A stretch of 29,702 bases of DNA from a virus. The stretch is taken from the IMG/VR virus record IMGVR_UViG_3300048840_000158, positions 1 to 29,702 of that record. The stretch is one strand, 5' to 3'. Shown here in pieces: positions 9,414-14,683 of this stretch. Position 1 is the first letter of the stretch; the number at the start of each line of letters is the position of its first letter. The position numbers and the translations under genes are program-made. The notes beneath the pieces were generated by a model. The model ran no database searches, was not told the origin of the DNA, and saw only the letters and a program-made list of their open reading frames with translations.

Positions 9414-9590
9414 ACATTCAAAGGGTTTAAAATACCCGAGACTGCGACCCGGAGGCCGGTATGGTGCGAATCCGCACGGGCCTGGAAACTTTGCTGGACC
9501 GTGAGCTGCCAGGAGTGCATCTTTGGCCCCTCTCAAAGAAACATTGACGCTAAAAACGAATGGAATAAACAACGACATGACGAATTTTAA
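9405..9590 (+). CDS. Small Cys-rich protein, tandem paralogue 2
   Basis: 61 residues, starting in an ATGA overlap with its paralogue. It begins MMDTFKGFKIP and has WCES, KLCW and SCQECIF, giving four Cys in a pattern like paralogue 1 (C21, C30, C35, C38), and ends NEWNKQRHDEF. The middle has diverged, while the ends and the junction DNA are nearly identical. Its last 14 bases overlap the primase start at 9577. Function unknown. Confidence 0.62.
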   Translation: MMDTFKGFKIPETATRRPVWCESARAWKLCWTVSCQECIFGPSQRNIDAKNEWNKQRHDEF

Positions 9591-11841
9591 AGCCCTACAC
9601 GGCAGGGCGCTAATCGACGCCGGTTATAAGTTAGTACCCATCAAGGCCGGGGCCAAGTACCCAGGGGCGAAGGGCTGGCCGGACATACGGGCCAAACACG
9701 CGGACGTAGACAAATGGGCAAAGAGCCCCTACTATGGCGGCCTGGGCGTCCTGGGGAAGTTCACGCCGGGCATAGACATCGATGTGCGCGACCCCACCCT
9801 GGTCGCTCTGCTCGTCGCCTGGTGTCGCGACCACATCGGCCCCGCCCCCATTCGCACCGGCAACCCGCCCAGGGTGCTGATCCCCTGCAGCCCACCGCCG
9901 GGGGGACTGGGGCCGGACGCATCGGACAAGTTCACCGGCCCGGACGGCAACGCGCATCAAATAGAGATTAAGGCCACGGGCCAGCAGTGGGTGGCCTACG
10001 GCGTGCACCCCGGCACGGGCAAGCCCTACGAGTGGAGCCACGGCGAGCTGTCAGAGCTGGACGCGGACTGGCTGCCCGTCCTCACCGGGGAAAAAATACA
10101 GGCGCTTTTTGACTACTTTTATTCAATTATCCCCGCCGGCTGGGTCCGAAAAGAGCGCCCCCGGCGCGACCCCGTCGGCGTAGTGACAGACGACGCCACG
10201 GTCCGGGGCGCGGTGTCCTTTGAAAATTACAAGCCCCCCTTACACATAACGACGGATCGCCTCCGCCTCATGCTCCGGCAGCTCGACCCCGACGCGGGGC
10301 ACGATCTTTGGTTACAAGTCGGCATGGCCCTATATCACCAGTACGAGGGCGGGGCCGAAGGGCTGGACCTTTTCGCGGAGTGGTCCCAGCGCTCGGTAGA
10401 CTACGACTACGCAGAGATTCAAACACGCTGGCCGACCTGGGGCTCAGGCGCCCGCTCTCCGATAACGGCGGCCTCTATCGTCGCGCTCTACAACGACACG
10501 GTAAAAAAAAAGGACGATCCAACCCTACGCCGAAAGCCCAGGGAGCTGTCCGGCTGGGTTAAGCGCTACGGGCTCGTGGAGCAGCCAGACGCGACCGAAG
10601 TCTACGACATGGGGGTCGAAGCCCATATCGCTAAGCGCCGGATGCTGAGGGCCTTCCGCGAGCACACCCAGGCGTACACCCACCGGACGCTAGGAGAGGA
10701 CGGCTCCGAGAAGATCACGCCCATGGCCGACGCCTGGGCTAAGTCCCTGGACACCCGACACTTTGCCGGCTACACGTACCAGCCAGGCGACGGGCGATAT
10801 TGTAAGCGCAGGCACAGCTACGGGGACGACGCGGAGTATATCAACACCTTCTATTTTCCCCCACACCCGCCCGAAACAGTACTCGGAGACGACCCCCGGC
10901 TAGACGTTTTTATGGATTTTATCAGACACCTTTTCCCTGAGGACGAGGAACGCGCCTGGCTCCTGCAGTGGCTCGCCAGGATGATCCAAAATCCGGGGGT
11001 GCGATCATTCGTGACGCCTATTAATATTACGTCGACGACGGGCACCGGCAGGGGAATTTTGTTTGAAATACTCATGGCGATGGTCGGGGGGCATAACTGT
11101 CACGATGTGAGCAAGGACGATTTAGAGGGCAGATTTAACGGCTTTTTAGACAAGTGTATCCTGGCCGTGGTCCAGGAGATAAAAGCCACCACCGGGGAAA
11201 AAAAATATCAGATGTGGGAGCGCATGAAATCGCTTTTAGCCGATACTGTTACCAACATTCAGCCAAAGGGCAAGGATAGCTACACGGCGAGCGTGTACGC
11301 CAATTTTCTTATGTTTTCAAACAACCTTGACGCGCTGCCAATCCCCGATTTAGACGAGCGGCGGATATACGCCATGCGGGGGCCTAAGGACTGTCTAAGC
11401 ACCCAGCAGATAGATAGGGTAATCGCCTGGAGGGATAACGCCGACAATATAGCGGCCCTTTTTAACTACTTCCAGAGGCTCCCATTTGACCCTTCTATCT
11501 TCAAACGCGCCCCGGCATCGGAGACAAAAAAGCAGATGATCCTGGCCTGTGGTGGGGCAGAGGAGGGGGATCTGAGCGAGTGGCTGGCTACCAAGGCGCC
11601 CCCGGTTTTTGACTTTGAATTTGCCCAGCAAGCGCTTTTAGCCTTCTCGTCGGACTTCGCGGAGTCTGGCGTAAATCGTAAATTGTTCCGCAGAAAGTTA
11701 TCAGATAAGGGGTACAGCTCTAAGCGAATACGCACCGGCGAGGAGAGAATTTACGTTTATTATAAGGACGATGGGGCGAACGGGAACCCCGAGCGGCTCC
11801 GGACCGAGTTCGAAATGTTGCGCAAAGGCGTGCCGTTCTAA
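9577..11841 (+). CDS. Primase-polymerase/helicase fusion (AEP prim-pol + PriCT + DUF5906-like)
   Basis: 754 residues from ATG 9577. The frame opens earlier at 9523, but that lies well inside the upstream gene. Residues about 1-190 are an archaeo-eukaryotic primase domain: GIDIDV gives D67 and D69, and HQIEIKATGQQWVAYGVHP is the conserved downstream strand. About 225-310 fits a PriCT domain (LWLQVGMALYHQ, FAEWSQRS). About 440-660 is an SF3-like P-loop domain with TGTGRG, where R492 replaces the usual Walker Lys, a variant I believe DUF5906 proteins also carry. A small winged-helix-like end follows. It should prime DNA and load or drive unwinding at the origin. It is the only primase seen and complements the family A polymerase. 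Confidence 0.9.
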   Translation: MTNFKALHGRALIDAGYKLVPIKAGAKYPGAKGWPDIRAKHADVDKWAKSPYYGGLGVLGKFTPGIDIDVRDPTLVALLVAWCRDHIGPAPIRTGNPPRVLIPCSPPPGGLGPDASDKFTGPDGNAHQIEIKATGQQWVAYGVHPGTGKPYEWSHGELSELDADWLPVLTGEKIQALFDYFYSIIPAGWVRKERPRRDPVGVVTDDATVRGAVSFENYKPPLHITTDRLRLMLRQLDPDAGHDLWLQVGMALYHQYEGGAEGLDLFAEWSQRSVDYDYAEIQTRWPTWGSGARSPITAASIVALYNDTVKKKDDPTLRRKPRELSGWVKRYGLVEQPDATEVYDMGVEAHIAKRRMLRAFREHTQAYTHRTLGEDGSEKITPMADAWAKSLDTRHFAGYTYQPGDGRYCKRRHSYGDDAEYINTFYFPPHPPETVLGDDPRLDVFMDFIRHLFPEDEERAWLLQWLARMIQNPGVRSFVTPINITSTTGTGRGILFEILMAMVGGHNCHDVSKDDLEGRFNGFLDKCILAVVQEIKATTGEKKYQMWERMKSLLADTVTNIQPKGKDSYTASVYANFLMFSNNLDALPIPDLDERRIYAMRGPKDCLSTQQIDRVIAWRDNADNIAALFNYFQRLPFDPSIFKRAPASETKKQMILACGGAEEGDLSEWLATKAPPVFDFEFAQQALLAFSSDFAESGVNRKLFRRKLSDKGYSSKRIRTGEERIYVYYKDDGANGNPERLRTEFEMLRKGVPF

Positions 11842-12429: not shown

Positions 12430-12522
12430 CCACCAACAACAGCAACCGCGCTGTTCAACGCCGAGACAACGAATATCGGATAAAAAATAAAAAGTAACAC
12501 AAGGGCAATACAAAAAGCATAC

Positions 12523-12554
12523 AAGGCAATACACTGTATTGCCTTTTTTATTTT
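12523..12554 (+). terminator. Rho-independent terminator of the rightward early operon
   Basis: AAGGCAATACA at 12523-12533 pairs perfectly with TGTATTGCCTT at 12535-12545. The stem runs into TTTTTTATTTT. On the other strand no T-run follows, so it should stop rightward transcription only. Confidence 0.8.
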
Positions 12555-12575
12555 GTCTTTAGTTTTTTGGGTTTT

Positions 12576-12934
12576 TGTCCCATGTGGTAACGGGACACGG
12601 GACAAGTACGGGACACCCCGGAGCCCTTATTCCATAGGGCTTAGAGGGATTCTGTCCCGTTGTCCCATAACTTTCTTAAAAATACTAGGTGAGATAAAGA
12701 GAGTCGTGTATATAGTATAAAGGGGGTTTTACACGAATGGTTTTTACAATGGGGGGTGAGTGAAAAAGTGACGGGACACGGGACAAACAGGGATCAAAAC
12801 CTCTGGAACCCTTATAGAATAAGGGCTACAGCCTGTCCCGTTACTTTTATTTTCGTGGGACAGACGAAAAGTAACGGGACAGAACCCCTTTTTTAAGCTA
12901 AAAAGGGGAAAAGGGCTTTTTTTCTAACGGGACA
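12576..12934. repeat. GGGACA/TGTCCC iteron-like array with nested dyads; candidate replication origin or operator region
   Basis: Twelve copies of GGGACA or its complement lie in 359 bases, against about 0.2 expected by chance. Forward copies start at 12592, 12599, 12610, 12773, 12780, 12857, 12876 and 12929. Reverse copies start at 12576, 12653, 12661 and 12834. Two modules share one design: the 16-mer ACGGGACACGGGACAA (12590-12605 and 12771-12786), then a small hairpin (AGCCCT/AGGGCT at 12622-12641; CCCTTAT/ATAAGGG at 12809-12825), then CTGTCCCGTT (12652-12661 and 12833-12842). The whole 12430-12997 stretch carries no supported gene. Its position near the primase gene fits an iteron origin; operator sites for the adjacent ribbon-helix-helix protein are the alternative. 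Confidence 0.7.
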
Positions 12935-12963
12935 AAATCACTAAAAATACGCAGTGGTATGTC

Positions 12964-12991
12964 TTGTTTTTTGTCGTGTATTATGTATATT
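12964..12991 (+). promoter_or_regulatory. Candidate promoter for the ribbon-helix-helix gene, possibly leaderless
   Basis: TTGTTT (12964-12969) and TATATT (12986-12991) are separated by 16 bases. Transcription would begin at about 12998, exactly at an ATG that has no Shine-Dalgarno sequence. It directly follows the GGGACA array, so array-bound protein could control it. Confidence 0.35.
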
Positions 12992-12997
12992 AATTGT

Positions 12998-13213
12998 ATG
13001 ACAATCAATAACAAATTTGAAAAGCTCACAACCAAAAGCGCAAGGCGTCAGCTTGTGTCTATGCGAATGGACCCAGACGTTTACGCGCAGCTTGACGCTA
13101 TGGCGCGGAGAGATAACCGGTCAAAAAGCAACATGATTGAGAAGCTAATCAAATCACAGATTATGAGAGACATGGCCGACACACGCATGGCCGTAGACGA
13201 TTTACTTAAATGA
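12998..13213 (+). CDS. Ribbon-helix-helix (CopG-like) regulator, 71 residues
   Basis: The pattern RQLVSMRMDPDVYAQLDAMA, then NRSKSNMIEKLI, is a clear ribbon-helix-helix: strand with alternating residues, helix, turn with RSKSN, helix. No good ribosome binding site precedes any in-frame start; ATG 12998 was chosen because it coincides with the expected transcription start, and ATG 12959 is the alternative. It lies immediately after the GGGACA array and so is the best candidate to bind it. Its role could be autorepression or copy control. This is inference from position. Confidence 0.7.
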   Translation: MTINNKFEKLTTKSARRQLVSMRMDPDVYAQLDAMARRDNRSKSNMIEKLIKSQIMRDMADTRMAVDDLLK

Positions 13214-14146: not shown

Positions 14147-14350
14147 ATGGCAAAACCTGAAAATGTAAACGACCTACTCGATGGGCACAAAGTCGAGAGC
14201 TGCGGAAATTGCGTCTACTTGCTCGATAAGGCCGGGATAGACGACAACTGCCGGCGCTTCCCGCCGAACTACCAAAGGCGGTTCCCGGAGGTCCAAAAAT
14301 CGGATTGGTGCGGAGAGTACAAAGCCGGGCAGCCGACGGTCAAGCGCTGA
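14147..14350 (+). CDS. Small Cys-motif protein, 67 residues
   Basis: Starts at ATG 14147 behind AAAGGGAT. The pattern SCGNCVYL ... NCRRFPPNYQ ... SDWCGEYK (C19, C22, C34, C54) is a familiar small phage protein with four Cys, likely a metal site. No function is known for the family. Its end overlaps the end of the Mor-like gene on the other strand by 11 bases (convergent). Confidence 0.72.
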   Translation: MAKPENVNDLLDGHKVESCGNCVYLLDKAGIDDNCRRFPPNYQRRFPEVQKSDWCGEYKAGQPTVKR

Positions 14351-14648
14351 CGAAGTAGAGCCTGTTATCGGGGTCTTTGACCACCTGCGTGGGCTTCGGC
14401 CTGGGGCTGTTTAGGATATTGTAGACGGTCTTAGTGCTCACGCCCAGCTCGCGGCTCAGCTCGTTCACTGATTTATTCCCTTTGACCTCGTCCAGCTGTT
14501 TGCGGAGGACGGCGGGACCCATGGTCTTAGGGAAATAAATCGTCATCCCGCCGACGGCATCGATTAATTTTGATAAGCCGTCGGTGCCGATGGCATCGGC
14601 TATAAGCCGGAGGTTTTTACTGGGTAGGTCTTCAATATCAATCCGCAT
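14340..14648 (-). CDS. Mor-like transcription activator, 102 residues
   Basis: Matches the Mor/C activator family of phage Mu. The N-terminal part has IDIEDLPSKNLRLIADAIG, a dimerisation segment, and MTIYFPK. The C-terminal helix-turn-helix contains SVNELSRELGVSTKTVYNIL. In Mu, Mor activates the middle promoter and C the late promoters. ATG 14648 was chosen because a promoter (14655-14683) predicts transcription starting exactly there, giving a leaderless mRNA; an ATG at 14663 lies within the promoter itself. It points at the inverted head operon and is the likely late-gene switch. Confidence 0.78.
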   Translation of the reverse strand: MRIDIEDLPSKNLRLIADAIGTDGLSKLIDAVGGMTIYFPKTMGPAVLRKQLDEVKGNKSVNELSRELGVSTKTVYNILNSPRPKPTQVVKDPDNRLYFVSA

Positions 14649-14654
14649 GAGTAC

Positions 14655-14683
14655 AGTATACATACATAACCAGGAGGTAACAA
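14655..14683 (-). promoter_or_regulatory. Promoter of the Mor-like gene, overlapping the divergent gene's ribosome binding site
   Basis: Reading leftward, TTGTTA (14678-14683) and TATACT (14655-14660) with a 17-base spacer. Six bases separate the -10 from ATG 14648, so the mRNA should begin at or next to the A of the start codon. The AGGAGG of the rightward gene at 14685 sits inside the spacer. Confidence 0.55.

Follow-up and report, generated by a model that had tools for sequence, protein, structure and literature searches.

Gene content and architecture of the intergenic array

The window, i.e. the whole stretch of 29,702 bases analysed here, is a linear IMG/VR virus record (IMGVR_UViG_3300048840_000158). 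It encodes a primase-helicase (Table 1) whose ATG lies at position 9577 within an open frame beginning with a TTG at 9523, and whose helicase part resembles the primase structures of phage NrS-1 (6k9c/6k9e, E=2.6e-17). For the C-terminal region AlphaFold predicts a winged-helix-like domain as a local block with pLDDT values mostly between 78 and 90, while the full-length model, with a mean pLDDT of 55.6, is too poor for use. The PDB matches of this domain are weak (none with E <0.06) and are mostly winged-helix proteins. K716 and R717 (approximately positions 11722-11727) are placed by the model on the first strand of the predicted wing, beside the helix-turn-helix.

The other strand of the window carries the genes of a family A DNA polymerase, an Enc34-type ssDNA-binding protein and a DUF2800 nuclease-like protein. 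Portal and terminase genes of the Mu-like type lie about 4-7 kb downstream on the opposite strand, and F-like head genes are encoded as well. A Mor-like late activator (14340-14663) follows the early region and precedes the Mu-like head genes of the opposite strand. The window appears to be a mosaic in which a Casjensviridae-like replication module is combined with a structural module of the Mu-like type.

The array is located 735 bp downstream of the primase stop, with small ORFs in between. It follows an intrinsic terminator-like site, as expected from the original prediction that it lies behind the early-operon terminator, and the ribbon-helix-helix (RHH) gene that had been noted after it is matched by Pfam (Table 1). 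The exact count of 12 GGGACA/TGTCCC motifs within 359 bp (12576-12934; strand order -+++--++-+++) was confirmed, and no other hexamer of the window is as strongly clustered. When the window was dinucleotide-shuffled 100 times, the best count for any hexamer per 359 bp was 4-6, never above six, and in shuffles of the intergenic stretch 12430-12997 GGGACA occurred 0.40 times on average and four times at most. The division into two matching modules was likewise reproduced. The 16-mer ACGGGACACGGGACAA is present at 12590-12605 and 12771-12786, CTGTCCCGTT at 12652-12661 and 12833-12842, and both modules follow a common plan of forward GGGACA, a small hairpin and reverse TGTCCC. Both hairpins are supported by the fold z-scores of the modules (-4.5 and -3.8), and the perfect 16-bp inverted repeat of module B reaches z = -7.7. 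A reversal of GC skew at the array, suggested as a check, was not seen: the skew follows the coding strand and keeps its sign across the array.

Table 1. Features at the end of the primase operon and in the adjacent array (window positions).
Feature	Position	Strand	Description
Prim-Pol + PriCT_2 + DUF5906 (SF3-type) primase-helicase	9577..11841	+	Pfam PF09250, PF08707, PF19263; putative initiator
C-terminal winged-helix-like domain of primase-helicase	11599..11769	+	AlphaFold E-H-H-H-E-E; putative iteron-binding domain
Intrinsic terminator-like site, end of primase operon	12523..12545	+	fold z -4.4
Module A	12576..12668	.	TGTCCC 12576; GGGACA 12592, 12599, 12610; TGTCCC 12653, 12661
Module A hairpin	12622-12641		AGCCCT..AGGGCT
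AT-rich spacer between modules A and B	12669..12770	.	65% AT versus 47% in the window; partly alignable with relatives; candidate melting region
Module B	12771..12882	.	GGGACA 12773, 12780; TGTCCC 12834; GGGACA 12857, 12876; inverted repeat 12833-12848/12867-12882
Module B hairpin	12803-12831		CTGGAACCCTTATAGAATAAGGGCTACAG
Distal GGGACA	12929..12934	+	GACA site at the equivalent position in the arrays of some relatives
Ribbon-helix-helix (CopG/Arc-like) protein	12998..13213	+	PF01402; directly after the array

The array locus in close relatives

Seven virus records contain primases that are 53-58% identical to that of the window. In one of them (G005, primase 53% identical) GGGACA recurs in steps of 10 bp and forms two inverted modules; this array follows the primase operon and precedes the small terminase gene. 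Five others (L397, L399, L400, L401 and L395) harbor 8-11 copies of CAAGACA downstream of the primase and almost no GGGACA; the module layout of these five arrays equals that of the window, and the spacers are partly alignable. In the seventh relative, L402, no array was recognised. The distance between array and helicase gene amounts to about 2.8-5.6 kb in several relatives. Judged from these sequences, the locus is conserved in close relatives and the GGGACA word mostly is not. The conservation demanded of the prediction is therefore found for position and layout, kept with another word, but not for the motif itself. The scarcity of GGGACA in the flanks of most close relatives, which taken alone would have counted as a refutation, lost this meaning with the CAAGACA arrays.

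About ten sites differ together between the two groups, CAAGACA versus CGGGACA, and the direction of the change may be either way. That all these sites switched together points to a trans-acting, sequence-specific protein that reads the word. Within the window's family, a small sample of two GGGACA and five AAGACA sequences, the predicted wing pair is K-R in both GGGACA members and x-Q in all five AAGACA members. An assignment of this pair to a recognition helix was dropped, as the model puts it on the wing strand. In addition, a run of about 41 in-phase 15-bp direct repeats was observed near the contig start of one relative (L395:1166-1945, G002).

Arrays behind helicase genes in other phages

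For a wider survey, loci were picked by their helicase protein and not by the motif, which yielded 73 AAA_25 genes with enough flanking sequence. The array region was set to -100 to +400 bp relative to the stop, and hexamers with -log10 p >= 6 were taken as strongly enriched. Such an array was found at 52 of the 73 AAA_25 genes versus 22 of 833 control windows; at -log10 p >= 10 the numbers are 27 genes and 3 control windows. At least four GGGACA motifs occur in only two of the 73 loci. GGGACA is thus one word among many, and a search by motif oversamples it. The remaining words, among them GGTAAC, GGTACA, CGTTGC, GGGTCA, AACTCC and more, depend on the lineage.

Covariation between word and protein was examined in 38 AAA_25 proteins of this protein-selected set, which do not belong to the window's family. 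The comparison was corrected for helicase-core similarity. In pairs sharing a word, the similarity of the winged-helix-like region exceeded the expectation by +0.138 (0 of 5,000 permutations, p<0.0002), while the N-terminal primase part did not covary with the word (-0.017, p = 0.73). The outcome was the same when the last 30 residues of the proteins were dropped and motifs were counted beyond the stop.

Among named phages, Casjensviridae with the same replication genes contain iterons downstream of the primase gene; their words are others, namely AAGGTCCGAAT, TTTATTACAAAC and TCCGGGACA. Only 7 of 16 named Prim-Pol-DUF5906 phages pass the array threshold, compared with 11 of 339 controls, and phage BIP-1 has no hexamer array 3′ of its primase. 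Within the protein family of the window the arrangement is thus frequent, though not found in all members.

GGGACA arrays themselves are widespread. The module pattern (GGGACA, GGGACA, 12-42 bases, TGTCCC, 3 bases, TGTCCC) matches at least 120 stretches in virus contigs, versus a single match for the backward-pattern control, and at least 120 stretches in bacterial genomes of many phyla, some of which may be chromosomal repeats. One Acidobacteria MAG (RPQK01; e.g. L281, L294, L296 and L304) carries GGGACA modules on many contigs, possibly as a dispersed chromosomal repeat and not as an origin. At least six clustered GGGACA motifs were present in 291 loci, 136 of which contain an AAA_25 helicase, alone or together with Toprim or Prim-Pol. 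In 115 of these 136 loci the array is located at the 3′ end of the AAA_25 gene, 105 of them starting between -148 and +49 bp from the stop codon. The same 3′ placement is found for VapE genes, although no homology was detected between VapE and AAA_25 C-termini, GGGACA being common to both types.

The CCCT..AGGG hairpin is present in 34 of 131 non-redundant arrays, but in only 64 of 4,645 control windows of the same length. In 25 of these 34 arrays it is flanked by a forward motif on one side and a reverse motif on the other, as in the window. A 9-mer scan of the arrays identified CCCTAAAGG, CCCTTTAGG and CCCTATAGG as recurrent non-motif elements. Fifteen long array records in which the fetched locus contained no AAA_25, VapE or DUF5906 gene were scanned over their whole length for AAA_25 and VapE; AAA_25 matched above the curated cut-off in only three and VapE in none, so that other readers of the word may exist.

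Proposed origin and alternative readings

Position 3′ of the helicase gene, concerted switching of the word and its covariation with the helicase C-terminus together argue for an iteron origin. Most probably, the array is a replication origin whose iterons are bound by the C-terminal winged-helix-like domain of the primase-helicase. Copies of the protein, bound to the GGGACA iterons via this domain, would assemble on the two modules around their hairpins. The intervening AT-rich spacer would then open, the SF3 helicase would load on the opened DNA and the Prim-Pol domain would prime the exposed strands. Several observations weigh against this reading, namely the distance of the array from the primase stop with the intervening small ORFs, the patchy occurrence of arrays among named Prim-Pol-DUF5906 phages including BIP-1 as well as the lack of a recognised array in L402, the origin of the covariation signal in AAA_25 proteins, the GC skew without a flip, and the GGGACA arrays in records without a recognised helicase of the AAA_25, VapE or DUF5906 families. 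On a broader scale it appears rather likely that AAA_25, VapE and DUF5906 phages share one origin plan, in which inverted pairs of a word of 5-7 bp, often enclosing a CCCT..AGGG hairpin, are clustered behind the helicase gene and read by a C-terminal winged-helix-like domain of the helicase; the word would diversify fast and change at all sites together (CAAGACA versus CGGGACA, with many further words).

The statement that no phage origin with this motif had been described agrees, for the word, with the literature searched, in which no GGGACA/TGTCCC origin was retrieved; one match that was inspected was a PCR primer. The kind of origin, iterons directly 3′ of an initiator helicase, is however known from the SaPI/PICI satellites. 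In their origins, an AT-rich region flanked by two sets of iterons is found 3′ of the replicative helicase gene (PMC7581432, PMC6092414), and the C-terminal domain of SaPI Rep helicases binds iterons directly downstream of its own gene (PMC7581432). Similarly, modules A and B flank the 65% AT spacer, and the covariation described above suggests a C-terminal reader in AAA_25 helicases. Satellite iterons immediately follow the helicase gene, which also applies to most GGGACA/AAA_25 loci (-148 to +49 bp); the distance is 735 bp in the window and about 2.8-5.6 kb in several relatives. Unlike the satellites, the window represents a full phage with its own Mu-like portal, terminase and head genes, arrays are found widely in other phage-like contigs as well, and its iterons form inverted pairs around CCCT..AGGG hairpins. 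On the best reading, the array would work like a PICI origin, but in a full phage and with hairpin-centred inverted pairs.

Other systems share single elements. In pRN1 (ORF904) the origin is a 100-nt stem-loop directly 3′ of a Prim-Pol/SF3/winged-helix gene, and a pRN1-like stem-loop origin 3′ of the gene has been proposed for phage BIP-1 (PMC4234260). The combination of Prim-Pol, SF3 helicase and C-terminal winged helix is the same here, but the single stem-loop of approximately 100 nt without iterons contrasts with the 12 iterons in two modules of the window. The oriV of RSF1010 resembles the array in combining iterons with small hairpins (ssi) near a RepA-type helicase, with RepA as helicase, RepB' as primase and RepC (PMC4234260); there, the separate initiator RepC reads the iterons, and no such protein was identified in the window. 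In PLE satellites the iteron sequence and the initiator DNA-binding domain covary, as found here for AAA_25 helicases, and are exchanged as modules (PMC8263062); however, their RepA_N initiator lacks helicase and primase and their iterons are three repeats of about 30 bp. Contrary to P4 with its alpha protein and origin, where the primase is of the Toprim type, the window employs Prim-Pol (PF09250) with DUF5906.

To our knowledge, most metagenomic phages have no mapped origin. If the rule holds that the origin lies directly behind the primase-helicase gene and that its word can be taken from the sequence alone, origins could be called in many uncultivated phages. The paired words and C-terminal domains would then provide a natural data set for an initiator-iteron recognition code, in which concerted switching is directly testable, and the satellite-type origin would extend to whole phages.

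That the array serves for packaging, as a cos or pac site recognised by the small terminase, is unlikely for the window phage. The array of close relatives does lie directly before an HNH or small-terminase gene, 27 of the 63 AAA_25-adjacent arrays with sufficient flanking sequence have a large-terminase gene within 3 kb, and in Casjensviridae a distance of about 550-680 bp separates the cos ends from the stop of the primase gene. In the window, however, the array does not adjoin a small-terminase gene; the terminase is Mu-like, encoded on the opposite strand about 5-7 kb off, yet the array accompanies the replication genes. Furthermore, no large terminase was detected in 34 of the 63 loci with the limited set of HMM seeds, the cos annotated in Nazgul and Enc34 lies further out than the iterons, at the end of the record, and the word covaries with the helicase C-terminus.

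Even less probable is an operator for the RHH regulator, which the original prediction had offered beside an origin. Arc/CopG proteins bind short repeated sites, and the RHH gene directly follows the array. Nevertheless, no RHH match was obtained in the records of any of the seven relatives, six of which carry a homologous array; this absence argues against the operator, as do the HNH or small-terminase genes that follow the array in most array-bearing relatives and the occurrence of GGGACA beside helicases across unrelated phages. The RHH protein is a neighbour and probably not the ligand of the array, while the origin alternative has gained from the comparative evidence. Comparably improbable is a dual use, in which the origin iterons would also serve in autoregulation of the primase operon or as a partition/incompatibility site. 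Iteron origins often have both roles, and doubled GGGACA arrays (22+30 and 21+28 copies) exist in contigs of about 95 kb, but the array of the window is behind the primase gene instead of in front of it, and no partition genes were recognised among the proteins scanned nearby.

Doubled arrays of 17-30 copies each were observed at L103:510-2100, L106:3511-5099, L077:9132-11520 and L122:2364-3407, the two halves being mostly about 0.5-0.7 kb apart. The contigs of L103, L106 and L077 (93-96 kb) gave no AAA_25 or VapE match, and the 735-738-aa neighbours of the doubled arrays in L077 and L103 gave no Pfam match. At L102:3740-4138, GGGACA modules are located on the 5′ side of a VapE/DUF5906-type gene, and the hairpin CCCTTATTCTATAAGCCCTT of this locus is closely similar to that of the window.
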